A stretch of 64,000 nucleotides of DNA. It comes from ANME-2 cluster archaeon. Its GTDB lineage: Archaea > Halobacteriota > Methanosarcinia > Methanosarcinales > Methanocomedenaceae. The DNA lies in NCBI GenBank assembly GCA_019429385.1, contig JAHYIS010000002.1, positions 1 through 64,000 of the forward strand. Direction: 5' to 3'. This document shows positions 500 through 57,831 of the stretch, in pieces. Within the stretch, counting starts at the first letter, position 1, and every line of letters starts with the position of its first letter. Below the pieces are notes generated by a model, which saw nothing but the letters and a program-made list of their open reading frames with translations, had not been told where the DNA came from and did no database searches. A program made the translations under genes and the position numbers.

Positions 500-1432
500 T
501 TATTCAGGGGGTATGACCAGTTCATCATGTACTAATATCACCGGGTCGAACTGTGGTGGTTCGTACCATTTACCAGACTTGTTATACCAATAACCGTACT
601 TCTTATATGTCCAGCCATTTGATTCGGTCCATTGGTCATACCTTTCATCATACCACGGGTCGTACAATGTGGCTGTGACATTCACCCTGAATGTATCACC
701 AGACATTCCTTTTGCCACATTTTGAACGGGCAGGTAACTTTCATTAGAAGGTTTATTGTTTGACAGTTCGATGACTGCCATGGGCCTTTCCCTCCAGCTT
801 GAAAGTGTTGCTATTCCCGATGATCTAAAATGGTAAATTTTAGTATCGTTTGACATGACATTTCCTGTTTCATCATCAATTATTGTTATTTGTACAGGAA
901 TATCGTAATCATTAAAGCCAAGTGCTTTATCATTGATGATGTAGCCATATATTTTGTAAATATCATAATCATCAGTAGTTTCTTTTCTGTACGAAAGTTG
1001 TACCGATAGCTCTGGTCGTTGTGGGACCGGAACAGTGACGTTAACCGAATCTGTATCAATAAGCTGACCATTCTGATATACACTCACCTTTACATTGTGC
1101 GTACCTGTCACCAGGTAACCGAGGAAAAAATGTTCAGTGTTATTACCAGGAAGGAGGGTAAGTTTGCCATACGGGTTTTGTGGATTGATATATTTAGCAC
1201 TGGTCCCATTTTCACTAATAAAAGCATTCTCAATCTCAATGCTTACGTCAACCGGAGTCAGAACATTGTTTCGAAGGGTAACGGTCAACTCACCTGATTC
1301 TCTCAGTCCGAGAGAATGTGGTGCGTCTAATTTTACGATTTTCACATCATCACCGATCGAGTAATAGTAAAGTAGGCCGATGGCAGCAATCAGTATTACA
1401 ACGGCAACGGAAATTACATATTCTTTTCTCAT
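500..1432 (-). CDS. Membrane-anchored secreted protein, unknown function
   Basis: A 310-residue protein with one N-terminal hydrophobic segment (VISVAVVILIAAIGLLYYYS, about residues 6-25), so probably anchored with its body outside the cell. The rest is beta-rich with several N-x-S/T sequons, resembling archaeal surface beta-sandwich proteins (for example RESGELTVTLRNN, about residues 44-56). The C-terminus is rich in Tyr/Trp. Its start overlaps the stop of the upstream wHTH regulator by 4 nt, so the two are probably cotranscribed and functionally linked. No family was recognised. Confidence 0.7.
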   Translation of the reverse strand: MRKEYVISVAVVILIAAIGLLYYYSIGDDVKIVKLDAPHSLGLRESGELTVTLRNNVLTPVDVSIEIENAFISENGTSAKYINPQNPYGKLTLLPGNNTEHFFLGYLVTGTHNVKVSVYQNGQLIDTDSVNVTVPVPQRPELSVQLSYRKETTDDYDIYKIYGYIINDKALGFNDYDIPVQITIIDDETGNVMSNDTKIYHFRSSGIATLSSWRERPMAVIELSNNKPSNESYLPVQNVAKGMSGDTFRVNVTATLYDPWYDERYDQWTESNGWTYKKYGYWYNKSGKWYEPPQFDPVILVHDELVIPPE

Positions 1433-1998
1433 TTCTTTTCACCTCTGATATCGTCTGCCAACGAGATTTGATTGGTGAGGCCATATTTGCTTTTGGTTAC
1501 AATGCCGCGCCGCTCAAGGTTCATCAGGATTCGCGAGACCTTGGCCTTTGAAAAATCAAGAGAGTTTACAAGTTCGTTCTGGAGGATATCTCCACCATTT
1601 TCCATTATGATTGAAACAGCCTTTTTTTCATCTCCCTCAAGAGCACGCAGGATTACGTTAATCTGTTCAGGGTTCTGTGGTTTTGAATCTGGGTCAGGCG
1701 CTATTTTCTCGGGAGTATTAATCAGTACATGCCCAATCTGAGGAACTTTAAGGCAAAATAGTATCTGGGATACTGCCACTCCACCCATCAGTCCTATCGC
1801 AAGCAGTATATAAGCATCTTTTGTGGTGTAAGAATAGGGAATCTCAATGACCTTGAAGGTGTCACCTTCGATCTGTATCACCACAGGGGCGCTTACAAGC
1901 AGCATATTGATTGTAATTATACTCAATAGGATAAACACTGCAAATGACAGGATCAGTCTTGTACGGCACTTCATCAATCGTATTATCTCATCTGGCAT
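1429..1998 (-). CDS. Membrane-bound winged-helix transcriptional regulator
   Basis: 189 residues with two transmembrane segments (about 14-34, LILSFAVFILLSIITINMLL, and about 62-83) and a C-terminal winged helix (about 112-178). The recognition part reads DFSKAKVSRILMNLERRGIV. This layout (TM pair, cytosolic MarR/ArsR-like wHTH) is common in archaea for membrane-tethered regulators. The extracellular loop between the TMs could sense a signal. It overlaps the next gene by 4 nt, which suggests it controls or senses that surface protein (inference). Confidence 0.75.
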   Translation of the reverse strand: MPDEIIRLMKCRTRLILSFAVFILLSIITINMLLVSAPVVIQIEGDTFKVIEIPYSYTTKDAYILLAIGLMGGVAVSQILFCLKVPQIGHVLINTPEKIAPDPDSKPQNPEQINVILRALEGDEKKAVSIIMENGGDILQNELVNSLDFSKAKVSRILMNLERRGIVTKSKYGLTNQISLADDIRGEKK

Positions 1999-2102
1999 AC
2001 TAAAAGATTATTGATTGAAACAAATGTTATAATTAAAGTATGACGACAGGCAAAAAGGTATCATATTTTTGAAACCACATCCTATCAGTGCAGGAATATC
2101 AA

Positions 2103-52466: not shown

Positions 52467-52699
52467 ACTAGCTCTACTCCTTGTCTTAGATTGATTGAGA
52501 AGAGAATATTCATGTGTATCTGGAATGCATGTATATTATTCTGAATATTGATTATGGGAACATATACGATGCAAGTCCTGGAATAAATTGAGGAAAATAC
52601 AGCGGCACTAACTTGACAACAATTATAATTGTCATAATGTTCATGAAAATTATCTTTCTCAGCTTTTTGTTCTCGAACAGATACAATACTACTGTCAAG

Positions 52700-53323
52700 T
52701 CAATCCTCAAGTGTCGGATAAAGCCGAGATAACTTAATCCTTGCATCCTCAGTTGTAAATTGCCAATTAACTTTCGCATTTTTATTGTTTCTGTATTTTT
52801 GCCATGCCAGTACTTCATCACTGACAACCGCAATGTCATCGATTCTTCTGTTTAAACACTGCCCTGTGAGCACGTTTAATTTTATCTCAGCCATATTCAA
52901 CCAACTCCCATGCTTTGGAGTATACACAAACTCGAATCTGTCCAATATTGCCTTTGCCTTCTCAGGCTGAAACGTTTCATAGAGCGATCCTGGAACGTGT
53001 GTGTTCAGATTGTCCATCACCAATATTATTTTTTCTGCTGTTTCGTATTGATCCTCAATCTCCTCCAAAAAATAAGCCCAATCCTGCTTGGTTCTTCTTT
53101 CAGTGACCTTCACCATGCGCTTTCCTGCCAATGGTTCACAGACGATAAAAACATTGCACATACCGCAACGCCTGTATTCATAATCATACATGGTCGGATG
53201 CCCTGGCGAAGCAGAGATTGGAGTTCTTGTCTCTGCAATTAGCTGCTTTGGGGATTCGTCCATGCATACAACAGGATATCGTGGATCAAACGGACGTTTG
53301 TAAACATCCAACACTATTTCCAT
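52700..53323 (-). CDS. IS630 transposase, DDE part (orfB)
   Basis: 207 residues from the first ATG, but the frame is open further upstream to the slippery run near 53395, reading KPWKQKGWVIPPEQN into it. Catalytic residues: Asp in YPVVCMDESPKQL, Asp in KIILVMDNLNTH, Glu in HGSWLNMAEIKLNVL. It is expected to be made as a fusion with orfA through -1 frameshifting, since on its own it lacks the DNA-binding domain. Confidence 0.9.
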   Translation of the reverse strand: MEIVLDVYKRPFDPRYPVVCMDESPKQLIAETRTPISASPGHPTMYDYEYRRCGMCNVFIVCEPLAGKRMVKVTERRTKQDWAYFLEEIEDQYETAEKIILVMDNLNTHVPGSLYETFQPEKAKAILDRFEFVYTPKHGSWLNMAEIKLNVLTGQCLNRRIDDIAVVSDEVLAWQKYRNNKNAKVNWQFTTEDARIKLSRLYPTLED

Positions 53324-53358
53324 ATTTGCAACAAAGTTACCGTTTTGCTCTGGAGGAA

Positions 53359-53832
53359 TTACCCAACCTTTTTGCTTCCAAGGCTTGATCTCGTTTTTTT
53401 TAGGATACGACGTACCGTTTCATGGGAGATGCTATCAATATATTCGAGTTCGACAACCTTGTCGGCTAACAACCTAAGAGACCATCTCGCAAAACCTTCG
53501 GGTGGCTCACCGCAACTCACTGCAACCAAATGAGCTTCAAAGTCCCCGTCAGCTTTTTTATCGTAGATGCGGTCTCTCTTTCTTCCGTTGAGGGCAACTT
53601 CGATACCTTCCGAGACAAAACGCTCCTTCACTCGGTCGATCTTTCTCATACTTATGTTCAGGATGTGGGCAATTTCTTCGTTGGTCGAACGTTTTATCTG
53701 ATACTCACCTTCATCGCATCCAAGTAGAATCAGAGCGTTGAGAATTTTCTGTGATTTATGTGTACCCTTGGAAATAAGTGCTCTAAGAGTTTCGCGTTCA
53801 TCTTTAGTAAGCGTCACGATGTATTTCTTCAT
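53359..53832 (-). CDS. IS630 transposase, HTH part (orfA)
   Basis: About 157 residues from the ATG at 53832 (GAGGG upstream). Two HTH regions: LTKDERETLRALISKGTHKS and STNEEIAHILNISMRKIDRV, then the FARWSLRLLADKVVEL block and ISHETVRRILKK. The frame ends soon after an A8 tract (53394-53401). In this frame the tract reads CTA-AAA-AAA-ACG; slipping back one base gives KKNEIKPWKQKGW, the normal IS630 continuation. Confidence 0.9.
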   Translation of the reverse strand: MKKYIVTLTKDERETLRALISKGTHKSQKILNALILLGCDEGEYQIKRSTNEEIAHILNISMRKIDRVKERFVSEGIEVALNGRKRDRIYDKKADGDFEAHLVAVSCGEPPEGFARWSLRLLADKVVELEYIDSISHETVRRILKKTRSSLGSKKVG

Positions 53833-53912
53833 TTTCAATTCCCTCAAGTTGATTATGAAGAACATATATTATATACTTTACGACATTATATGGTTGACTT
53901 GACATTAGTATA

Positions 53913-54074
53913 ATTCTTAACCCGAATCATCCGGTTGCTACATCGAATGCTGAATGTGATAGATGTCATAATGATGGAACAATTTTGACCCTGGCTAATG
54001 TAGACTTCCATGATAAGGCAATCAGACCTGTTGGAGGTGACAATTGTCTGGATTGTCATAGTTCTGCTCAATAG
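53913..54074 (+). pseudogene. Severed C-terminal fragment of a multiheme cytochrome
   Basis: An open frame of 53 codons with no start: NPNHPVATSNAECDRCHNDG and GGDNCLDCHSSAQ, ending TAG at 54074. It holds two CxxCH c-type heme motifs. It begins 5 nt from the right end of the IS630 element, so the element probably cut the gene. I looked for the missing N-terminal part left of the element (52467-52686) and found no CxxCH in any frame. The remainder was deleted or moved. Confidence 0.75.
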
Positions 54075-54181: not shown

Positions 54182-55765
54182 ATGAAAATAAGGTGGGTTT
54201 TGATCTATGCGGTCTTATTAATGATTGTTATTAGCTATGGTGCCTCATCATATCCTTCATATAATACAGAGGAAGATTGCAGAAGCTGTCATGGTATTAC
54301 AGTAGACCGGCATCATCTTCTGATACCAAATGGAACGTATCAATGTACAGATTGCCATGCAATGAAATATGACACACAAAATCAGATCTATTATCCTGAA
54401 GTAATTAGGAATTGTCTGACCTGCCATGTTGGAAAAGAACATACGGATGCACATCATCTCCTTGTACAGCAAGGTTTATTTGTATGTACTGATTGCCATG
54501 CAATGAAATATGATACGCAAAATCAAACTTATTATCCTGAAATAATATGGGATTGTACTATATGCCATTCGACCGTATTGATTCCAGGTACCCCCGTTCC
54601 TACACCTACGCCAACTCCAGTAAACCCACCAACAATTTCCAACCTTTCTCCGACATCTCCTGCAAAAGATATTATTGGGGCTTCAAGGGAATTCACTATT
54701 ACAGTTGATCAGATAGTAGATTTTACCTGGTATCTTGACAATAATCCGGTTCAGTCAAATGAAAGTGTTCTTTATGCAGGTTATACCAATACAGGCGCAG
54801 CCTTGGGAGTATGGAACATTAGTGTAAAGGCTTCTAATGTCGATGGAAATATTATGTACATCTGGACATGGAACGTGTCATCAATACCTCCTCCACCAGT
54901 CATAACCATCTCTTTTCCAACCTCATCAATAAACGATATTGTTGGAACTTCAAGGAAATTCGGGATAACAATTGACCAGATTGCTAACATTGTCTGGTAT
55001 ATTAATGGTAATCCTGTCCAGTCTAATGTCAGTGTCATGGGTGCGAGTTATAATAATTCGAGTACGACCATTGGAATCTGGAACGTGAGTGCAATAGCGA
55101 CAAATGCCAACGGACGTGCATCGCATACTTGGACCTGGAACGTGGCACCTCTCCCTGTTCCCCCGGTCATCAGTAATTTTGCACCCAATCCGTTAGTAAA
55201 TGATATTGTGGGAGCTTCAAGGACCTTTAACATCACGATAGATCAGCCTGCTGACGTATCCTGGTATATCAACGGAATCCTGGTCCAATCCAATGGAAGT
55301 ATTTCAGAAGCACGATATACTAATAACAGTTCAGCTGTGGGAACGTGGAACGTGAGTGCAATAGCGACAAATGCCAACGGAAGTGTAATGTGCACCTGGA
55401 CATGGAAAGTAATGTACTATTTCAGTGGTTTCCTGTCGCCCATAAAAACTGATGGAAGAAGTATCTTCAAGCTGGGAAGTATAGTCCCAATAAAGTTTCA
55501 ATTACGCGACGCTAATGGTAACGATATCAAAAGTGCAGATGTAAGATTAAATTTCACTAAGATAATCTCAACCGCTACAGGGACATATTTAGAACCTTTT
55601 TTGATAGAAAATGAAACAACAGGGGATGTTTTCATATTTAGCAACACGAGCAATATGTATAAGTATAATCTCGCAACTAAAAATATGTCAAGTGCAACCT
55701 GGCAGATAAGGGTGGATATTGATGATGGAAATTCGAATACGGTAAATATTTCACTTAAATGTTAA
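54182..55765 (+). CDS. Secreted five-heme cytochrome with Ig-like repeats and PxKF domain
   Basis: 527 residues; GGAGG precedes the ATG. Signal peptide (WVLIYAVLLMIVISYGASS). Five CxxCH heme motifs begin at C33, C55, C78, C102 and C125; YDTQNQxYYPExI with its heme pair is duplicated. A Pro/Thr linker (PGTPVPTPTPTPVNPP) leads to three Ig-like repeats of about 88 residues (SASREFTITVDQ-type, WYINGNPVQSN, GIWNVSAIATNANG). The C-terminal PxKF-like domain has GFLSPIKTDGRSIFKLGSIV then PIKFQLRDANGND. Such proteins fit cell-surface or S-layer electron transfer in ANME-type archaea (inference). No sixth heme is seen. Confidence 0.85.
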   Translation: MKIRWVLIYAVLLMIVISYGASSYPSYNTEEDCRSCHGITVDRHHLLIPNGTYQCTDCHAMKYDTQNQIYYPEVIRNCLTCHVGKEHTDAHHLLVQQGLFVCTDCHAMKYDTQNQTYYPEIIWDCTICHSTVLIPGTPVPTPTPTPVNPPTISNLSPTSPAKDIIGASREFTITVDQIVDFTWYLDNNPVQSNESVLYAGYTNTGAALGVWNISVKASNVDGNIMYIWTWNVSSIPPPPVITISFPTSSINDIVGTSRKFGITIDQIANIVWYINGNPVQSNVSVMGASYNNSSTTIGIWNVSAIATNANGRASHTWTWNVAPLPVPPVISNFAPNPLVNDIVGASRTFNITIDQPADVSWYINGILVQSNGSISEARYTNNSSAVGTWNVSAIATNANGSVMCTWTWKVMYYFSGFLSPIKTDGRSIFKLGSIVPIKFQLRDANGNDIKSADVRLNFTKIISTATGTYLEPFLIENETTGDVFIFSNTSNMYKYNLATKNMSSATWQIRVDIDDGNSNTVNISLKC

Positions 55766-55868: not shown

Positions 55869-56579
55869 TTAGCCTAAAGAAAATGTTACCATCTTGCGTT
55901 CAAGTCTCATATCAGCAGGGTCATCCTCCACATCAAAATGAGGGATTCCGTATTCATCGTTCATTTCAGCAACAATCCTTTCAAAATCCGACCCTGCCAT
56001 CAATTCCCGGAAAAGCACAGCCATTTGCCCGACCTTCTTGTAATCGCAGAACCACTGGTGCAGGATAAGGTCTACCCCTTCATATCCCACAAAGTCCCTG
56101 AACGCATCTTTGTAATACATTTCGCTCTTGCAGCAGTCAAGGTAATATAATTGATACGGTTTTTTATCTGGATGTTCAAATCCTGCTTTCATTGCTTCAG
56201 TAAAGATAGTCACATCGTCGCTCAGGCTGATATGTTTACCATATCCAGCATGGGATTTCAGGTATATGACATCCTCGTTTATGAGAGATTCCTGCCAGAG
56301 TTCCTGAAGGTCATTATCATAATCCCTGCCATGGACAAGGCGTATGCGCGCAGTGATATCATTATCCTCATAGGTGAACGTGGTCTTTAATTCGTCATAC
56401 CCGCTACGGTGTTCAGTCATCCCGAATCCGATGTTCCTGAGCCTGAGCCGGGCTCCCAGAAATACACTATAGTCGTAATAAGCACCCCACGGGTCAGGCC
56501 CTATCAGAAGGGTGGCATTAAGTGTACCGCCATCGAACAGCATATCATATCTGGGTGCATTACGGCTCTTATTGATCAT
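55869..56579 (-). CDS. Unknown protein with caspase-like His/Cys pattern
   Basis: 236 residues, cytosolic, no TM or signal peptide. No family recognised with certainty. Two hydrophobic strands each end in a possible catalytic residue: DVIYLKSHAGYGKH (His110) and QLYYLDCCKSEMYY (Cys149/Cys150). The 40-residue spacing and strand-His-Gly/strand-Cys layout resemble clan CD peptidases (caspase, C25, CHAT). The N-terminal half (LLIGPDPWGAYYDYSVFL, ITARIRLVHGRDYDND) is unrecognised. Convergent with the cytochrome gene. Confidence 0.5.
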   Translation of the reverse strand: MINKSRNAPRYDMLFDGGTLNATLLIGPDPWGAYYDYSVFLGARLRLRNIGFGMTEHRSGYDELKTTFTYEDNDITARIRLVHGRDYDNDLQELWQESLINEDVIYLKSHAGYGKHISLSDDVTIFTEAMKAGFEHPDKKPYQLYYLDCCKSEMYYKDAFRDFVGYEGVDLILHQWFCDYKKVGQMAVLFRELMAGSDFERIVAEMNDEYGIPHFDVEDDPADMRLERKMVTFSLG

Positions 56580-57331: not shown

Positions 57332-57568
57332 ATGAATTCTTCAACAACAATCTGTCTGGACCCTAAAGTTAAGGATATGTTAACATCTCTAAAACATTAT
57401 CCTCGTGAATCATATAGCTCCGTTGTGAAGAGATTGGCAAATATGGCGATTGATAAAGAATCACTCAGCGACGAAGCAATAAATGGTATAGAAGAAGCAT
57501 TAGAAGATATCAAACAGGGGCGATTGCACTCCGAAGAAGAAATTCTAAAAGAGTTTGACCTGTCATGA
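57332..57568 (+). CDS. Antitoxin, RelB/VapB-like
   Basis: 78 residues, with AGGTGA upstream and a strong TATA-like run (AAATATATTTAATATATAAT, 57295-57314) before it. The N-terminal half (STTICLDPKVKDMLTSLKHY then ESYSSVVKRLANMA) fits a ribbon-helix-helix/VapB-type DNA-binding domain. The acidic C-terminus (EEALEDIKQGRLHSEEEILK) would wrap the toxin. It overlaps the toxin gene by 4 nt. Typical type II autoregulated pair. Confidence 0.83.
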   Translation: MNSSTTICLDPKVKDMLTSLKHYPRESYSSVVKRLANMAIDKESLSDEAINGIEEALEDIKQGRLHSEEEILKEFDLS

Positions 57569-57831
57569 GCTATAAGGTCAAGTATACATCCAAAGCGAAA
57601 AGGGATCTTCAAAAGCTCCCCCTGGATATTGCACAGAGCATAATTCTATCGATTCATGATATTAAGAATGATCCCTATTCTTATGTAAAAAAGATAAAAG
57701 GGACAAAAAGTCATCCTCTCTATACTCATCGGATTGGTGAATATCGGGTAATATTGGACATTATTGATGATAGTCTGTTGATAATAGTGATTGAAACGGG
57801 TCACCGAAATAAAATCTACCGGAAATATTAA
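57565..57831 (+). CDS. RelE/ParE-family toxin
   Basis: 88 residues. The fold signature is KVKYTSKAKRDLQKLPLDIA, then KIKGTKSHPLYTHRIGEYRV and ILDIIDDSLLIIVIETGHRN with a final YRKY. RelE-type toxins cleave mRNA on the ribosome, and the C-terminal Arg/Tyr/Lys pattern is compatible. Pairs with the preceding antitoxin. It is the only intact module in a stretch of broken genes. Confidence 0.87.
   Translation: MSYKVKYTSKAKRDLQKLPLDIAQSIILSIHDIKNDPYSYVKKIKGTKSHPLYTHRIGEYRVILDIIDDSLLIIVIETGHRNKIYRKY

Follow-up and report, generated by a model that had tools for sequence, protein, structure and literature searches.

The pentaheme gene of the window (the whole 64,000-nucleotide stretch of DNA analysed here) encodes, with a probability that we put at roughly 60%, a secreted c-type cytochrome with five hemes, which uses an OmcZ-type head to relay electrons at the outer cell surface of an archaeon of the anaerobic-methanotroph type. 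OmcZ polymerises into nanowires that carry electrons; the pentaheme protein may serve as a relay or connector on the cell surface and not form a wire of its own. Its heme part is OmcZ-like, and in relatives the gene is part of omcZ loci; both points were overlooked in the original prediction, which was made from this DNA alone. By what route electrons leave the S-layer of anaerobic methanotrophs and enter extracellular nanowires is an open question, and a head common to OmcZ, S-layer conduits and stalk proteins offers a concrete, testable joint.

Architecture of the pentaheme protein

The original prediction described a secreted five-heme protein with three repeats and a PxKF-like end, and this domain order holds (Table 1). 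The best 19-residue hydropathy window (2.02) lies at residue 3, within the signal-like start. CxxCH motifs begin at C33, C55, C78, C102 and C125, the last one ending at H129; that is, the heme motifs are packed into the first 130 residues and precede a Pro/Thr stalk, as had been proposed. Five such motifs occurred in none of 20,000 residue shuffles, the shuffle maximum being one. Residues 1–140 contain exactly ten histidines: five proximal ones within the motifs and five spare ones (H44, H45, H87, H91 and H92). With five CxxCH motifs the protein is by its sequence a multiheme c-type cytochrome (a secreted protein with at least three such motifs), its secretion being judged from hydropathy only. 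The suspected internal duplication of the heme segment was confirmed: residues 33–82 and 78–129 are identical at 31 of 52 positions with an alignment score of 182, compared to a mean of 49 (sd 9.5, maximum 99) among 1,000 shuffles that kept the CxxCH motifs.

Table 1. Features of the pentaheme gene and of the DNA upstream of it (window positions)
Feature	Position	Strand	Basis or detail
Pentaheme cytochrome, 3 Ig-like, PxKF ORF	54182..55765	+	ATG, 527 aa plus stop
Signal-peptide-like start, residues 1-23	54182..54250	+	Inspection and hydropathy
Pentaheme head, residues 28-131, internally duplicated	54263..54574	+	CxxCH and spare His positions, OmcZ-like
Pro/Thr linker, residues 132-148	54575..54625	+	Sequence
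Ig-like repeat 1, residues 149-237	54626..54892	+	Repeat alignment, AlphaFold2, VIA-align
Ig-like repeat 2, residues 238-326	54893..55159	+	Repeat alignment, AlphaFold2, VIA-align
Ig-like repeat 3, residues 327-411	55160..55414	+	Repeat alignment, AlphaFold2, VIA-align
PxKF domain (NF038114), PIKF at residue 436	55424..55759	+	NCBIfam profile
Insertion sequence	52686..53911	-	31-bp inverted repeats; two transposase ORFs (DDE_3; HTH_32/HTH_29)
3' remnant of CxxCH gene, cut by the insertion sequence	53912..54071	+	Two motifs, no start

The three repeats start at residues 149, 238 and 327. Their spacing of 89 and 89 residues is close to the predicted value of about 88, and their pairwise identities are 42/87, 42/84 and 51/84. 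AlphaFold2 modelled them as three beta sandwiches (pLDDT about 90), for which Foldseek and VIA-align found matches among Ig domains of the titin and cell-adhesion types (VIA-align Z up to 12.7). Since the Pfam family Ig_3 reached 20.9 bits on the repeats, below its cut-off of 30, the label 'Ig-like' refers to the predicted fold and not to a family match. The repeats had been called typical of archaeal surface proteins; indeed, heme-free proteins with such repeats are found in other families of the order, and we therefore regard them as generic surface repeats. The C-terminus, residues 415–526 of 527, matched NF038114 with 62.6 bits (curated cut-off 35, E 3.9e-17). Pfam scanning detected no S-layer domain in the protein (PF07752 was not among the matches), the combined Pfam and NCBIfam scan revealed no TIG domain, and the hydropathy profile contained no second hydrophobic or membrane stretch, leaving no visible anchor. 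The proposal that the hemes sit at or beyond the S-layer thus found no backing in Pfam domains or hydropathy.

The head is related to the N-terminus of OmcZ

We built a profile (A2) from seven complete heads and compared it to a profile of seven OmcZ proteins, which gave a match of probability 99.2 over 89 columns, spanning four CxxCH motifs and both His pairs. In hmmsearch, the head profile scored 15–53 bits on nearly all OmcZ proteins with a whole N-terminus, weak exceptions being found at loci L129 (5.1 bits) and L142 (8.7 bits). None of 18 other multiheme ORFs of the window's genome (3 to 67 motifs) reached 17 bits and most stayed below 11; the 17-bit threshold, like the requirement 'near the N-terminus', was chosen after the scores had been seen.

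The head model, with a mean pLDDT of 77, was computed from 34 alignment rows that included OmcZ rows. Foldseek ranked OmcZ first (E 0.032, probability 0.84), and OmcZ chain 7lq5_A was the sole one among 384 with a VIA-align Z of at least 2, which says nothing about other folds. The superposition was modest (Z 4.3; 2.8 Å over 53 residues, model residues 6–60 on OmcZ 23–92). The full-length AlphaFold2 model had a pLDDT below 50 over much of the head and was left out of the OmcZ comparison. OmcZ was not retrieved from the PDB by sequence when either the single protein or the head profile on its own served as the query. A further profile (A5) retrieved OmcZ first from the PDB; we did not count this result, because A5 contains OmcZ rows and its rows were chosen by a motif pattern of which the His pair is a part.

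Distribution and conservation of the head

Searching 185 genomes of the order with A2 (E 1e-15 or better), we found seven complete heads and four partial, three-heme heads in nine genomes. The complete heads are confined to two genera. Three occur among the eight genomes of the window's genus (the window's own genome G000, G004 and G005) and four in Methanoperedens (M. nitroreducens G075, G076, G080 and G088), a genus that the original prediction had named for comparison. M. nitroreducens shares the order of the window's genome but belongs to another family. No additional complete head was present in 392 genomes of the phylum; at 1e-8, two of these matched, namely the window's own genome and G021, which contributed a fifth partial head. 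Plasmids yielded no copies of the head, nor were Borg copies found in viral_contigs, where none of 44 pattern stretches was confirmed.

The seven complete heads agree in all five CxxCH motifs and in each of the five spare histidines. Homologues that lack the heme motifs, named beforehand as a refuting case, were not encountered for the heme part. The motifs are spaced by 22, 23, 24 and 23 residues in five of the seven heads; in G088 and G005, short insertions ahead of the first His pair lengthen the first gap. What follows the head varies: nothing in G076 (195 aa, without Ig or PxKF), one Ig domain in G088 (258 aa), one Ig domain plus PxKF in G004 (369 aa), six further hemes in G005 and G080, and many Ig-like domains plus PxKF in M. 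nitroreducens (1,585 aa). Searches with the whole protein matched 82 of 99 relatives, mostly via the Ig-like repeats, which are widespread in the order. PxKF was detected in 13 of the 185 genomes (above the cut-off in nine).

For the head, dN is 0.09–0.12 versus a dS of 0.45–1.3 (a dN/dS ratio of about 0.27 relative to G004 and of 0.07 relative to M. nitroreducens), and these substitution rates indicate that it is still under constraint. The head core is 84% identical to that of M. nitroreducens and 77% to that of G004 from the same genus, versus 56% and 89%, respectively, for MutL, which had hinted at a transfer. We nevertheless rejected a recent transfer from Methanoperedens: dS amounts to only 0.45 for the comparison with G004 but to 1.3 for that with Methanoperedens, translations compared by eye seem to place the PxKF part nearer to G004, and the tree does not reject a single clade (p-AU 0.165). 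The high identity between families may reflect an old exchange or strong constraint.

Head genes are linked to omcZ loci

For five of the seven complete heads, an omcZ gene or its remnant is no more than 2.4 kb away. The distance is 0.14 kb in G080, 1.7 kb in G004, 2.1 kb in M. nitroreducens and 2.3 kb in G076, and a frameshifted remnant is located 1.1 kb from the head in G005. The M. nitroreducens neighbour matched the OmcZ chain 8d9m_A with a phmmer E of 5.4e-48. The G004 locus comprises two omcZ genes and a subtilase gene (Peptidase_S8, E 1.6e-59), the latter beside the pentaheme gene. The G005 remnant (L039, contig C427, about 1430–2000, minus strand) is spread over several frames beside an intact 11-motif head gene. 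The 98-kb contig of G088 that carries its complete head contains no omcZ. Among the partial heads, those of G073 and G021 and the second one of G075 have omcZ within 1.8 kb, and those on G088:C38 and in G100 have none within this distance. That is, 8 of the 12 head genes adjoin omcZ, in one case a broken one.

Conversely, we inspected 31 omcZ stretches, which represent all omcZ places found except that of G005, some of them ending at contig ends. In 11 stretches a non-OmcZ gene bears the head at its N-terminus, and 20 have no head-bearing neighbour. In one family (f2), none of eight stretches contains another ORF with two or more CxxCH motifs. Within the window's family, a 27–30-heme gene follows omcZ in six stretches and starts with the head in five of them (G013, G006, G010, G009 and G004:C33). 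In the sixth (G012, L119), the profile match stays below the 17-bit threshold (14.1 bits) and is not N-terminal, though the start looks alike by eye. The S-layer domain PF07752 was found in all three of these six conduits that were scanned (G006, G013 and G009) and in the G021 gene; head-bearing omcZ neighbours include S-layer conduits of 27–33 hemes.

Two kinds of loci are recorded here as side observations. A stretch of G073 (L125, contig C21) holds four omcZ genes interleaved with 21- and 24-heme genes. In addition, two Methanoperedens ORFs of about 1,450–1,510 aa with 28–29 CxxCH motifs (L131:3885-8252 in G075 and L132:6337-10869 in G073) have an OmcZ-type domain as their C-terminal third, so that OmcZ itself is a fusion module.

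The occurrence of omcZ homologues beside very large multiheme genes in ANME has already been reported (PMC9012536, part of the main text). In portions of the main texts of PMC9012536, PMC10542353, PMC10874420, PMC11208441, PMC9473688, PMC12246660 and PMC5244752, we found no account of the pentaheme-Ig-PxKF protein or of a head common to OmcZ and its neighbours.

The locus in the window lacks omcZ

The window is part of contig C2 in a genome of 2.4 Mb and 70 contigs. An mcrA gene is located on C2 as well; among solved structures, 9qqt and 9qr1 are closest to its product, and the ANME-2c enzyme 9qm5 is more distant. Multiheme genes abound in the genome (81 matches to a paired CxxCH pattern versus none for the reversed control pattern), and we take the source organism to be an anaerobic methanotroph. 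One giant ORF (3-11408 of L104, C5:9000-23000) has at least 67 CxxCH motifs in 3,802 residues; it reaches the start of its stretch and may be longer.

Downstream of the pentaheme gene, the gene order equals that of G004. Upstream, the window has an insertion sequence, presumably an IS630 element, where G004 has the subtilase and two omcZ genes. It is the single copy in the genome, in which omcZ has no match. The end of the truncated CxxCH gene next to it resembles the 7-heme gene that immediately precedes the G076 pentaheme gene, but weakly (16/41 identical, E 7e-5 in a single comparison). The element, located at the synteny break with G004 and beside a cytochrome remnant, is a likely cause of the loss of an omcZ locus. 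On the other side, a 235-aa ORF without Pfam match (55869-56579, minus strand) adjoins the pentaheme gene, as it does in G004, and an ORF of the ParE-type toxin family (PF05016) is located at 57565-57831.

Discussion

In the reading that we favour, the heme part would be an OmcZ-type N-terminal head (CxxCH, His pair, CxxCH, Arg-x-CxxCH) that gained its five hemes by tandem duplication, each heme being provided with one motif histidine and one spare histidine. Because a spare histidine is conserved for each heme, five bis-His hemes and a short electron path are expected. His pairs that bring hemes close are said to raise conductivity (PMC11208441, in part of its text). Three rigid Ig-like domains and the PxKF domain would hold or present the head outside the cell, where a head on a stiff Ig stalk could act as a surface relay, and the gene probably originated as an accessory to nanowire loci with omcZ. 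For the pentaheme protein, we infer heme loading, axial ligation, location and the direction of electron flow. We counted against the relay the missing omcZ match in its own genome, the broken omcZ of G005 and the G088 contig without one. Further points against it are the lack of a visible anchor, the PDB sequence searches that did not retrieve OmcZ, the modest structural Z and the OmcZ rows in the alignment behind the head model. With omcZ missing in the window's genome and broken in G005, the head is kept where the wire gene is lost. Wire genes can evidently disappear while the head-bearing protein stays, which bears on its role without wires.

A tentative alternative is that the head imitates the N-terminus by which OmcZ subunits dock, and attaches in this way to the tip of an OmcZ filament; it is just as conjectural that the wire is fastened to the cell surface or a partner by the Ig-PxKF part or, in sister genera, by a multiheme conduit of the S-layer. 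Such a connector would account for the homology of the head to OmcZ, for the adjacency of most head genes to omcZ and for the N-terminal heads of omcZ neighbours, 27–33-heme PF07752 conduits among them. It would also fit the OmcZ filament, in which each subunit ligates its own hemes and the heme 1 motif lies at the N-terminal subunit interface (PMC9473688, in part of its text). However, the lack of omcZ in the window's genome disfavours an obligate wire role of the head, and omcZ stretches without head-bearing neighbours, including every one of family f2, imply that wires do not need it. More generally, ANME might employ a single exchangeable heme head of the OmcZ kind as a plug that docks OmcZ subunits and also docks other bodies on the wire end, an idea that we consider doubtful. 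It is no less speculative that these bodies, Ig-PxKF stalks in the window and Methanoperedens and S-layer conduits in sister genera, share a standard heme-to-heme joint from nanowire to cell surface.

A plain soluble or wall-held shuttle, or a small-capacity relay unrelated to filaments, would owe its OmcZ likeness to shared ancestry. We consider this somewhat unlikely: retention of the head without omcZ in G000 and with a broken omcZ in G005 and the stand-alone form in G076 speak for it. The repeated genomic adjacency to omcZ speaks against it, as do the Ig and PxKF parts, which point to a fixed position on the surface. Most improbable is a relic, that is, a functionless, decaying gene left behind when the upstream genes of the omcZ locus were lost to the insertion sequence. 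The position of the element at the synteny break, the truncated gene upstream and the intact cluster of G004 would fit such a history. Yet the ORF is intact with every motif kept, and amino-acid change is smallest on the G000 branch (dN about 0.03 versus 0.09 for G004, by hand arithmetic).

Comparison with known systems

OmcZ (8d9m, 7lq5) shares with the pentaheme protein the N-terminal order of CxxCH, His pair, CxxCH, Arg-x-CxxCH and second His pair, a heme part that precedes beta domains and, in relatives, the same loci. The two differ in heme number (eight in OmcZ versus five). The pentaheme protein also lacks the VPPPP start and a detected TIG domain, and its gene has neither omcZ nor a subtilase gene beside it in the window's genome. 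In OmcZ, a C-terminal TIG/Ig precursor part is removed by a subtilisin-like protease (OzpA); the pentaheme protein has its Ig-like repeats and PxKF at this end. MtrA/DmsE-type decahemes and NrfB matched the head weakly only, and we dropped this kinship: TIGR03508 reached 27.2 bits with a cut-off of 192.2, five hemes compare to ten, and chain 6r2q_A, which we take to be MtrA, matched with an E of 0.09. The S-layer multiheme conduits of ANME (ANME MHC-A/B, Chadwick et al. 2022, PMC9012536, as described in part of its main text) are similar in that the same head starts five of the six omcZ-adjacent genes of the window's family, but the pentaheme protein has no PF07752 and five instead of 27–33 hemes. 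The orthologue is the 1,585-aa ORF of 'Ca. Methanoperedens nitroreducens' (L003:9866-14620), with its closely similar pentaheme head (84% identity), Ig-like repeats and PxKF end; omcZ is 2.1 kb from it, and the protein differs by many more Ig-type domains (Big_13, Big_9).
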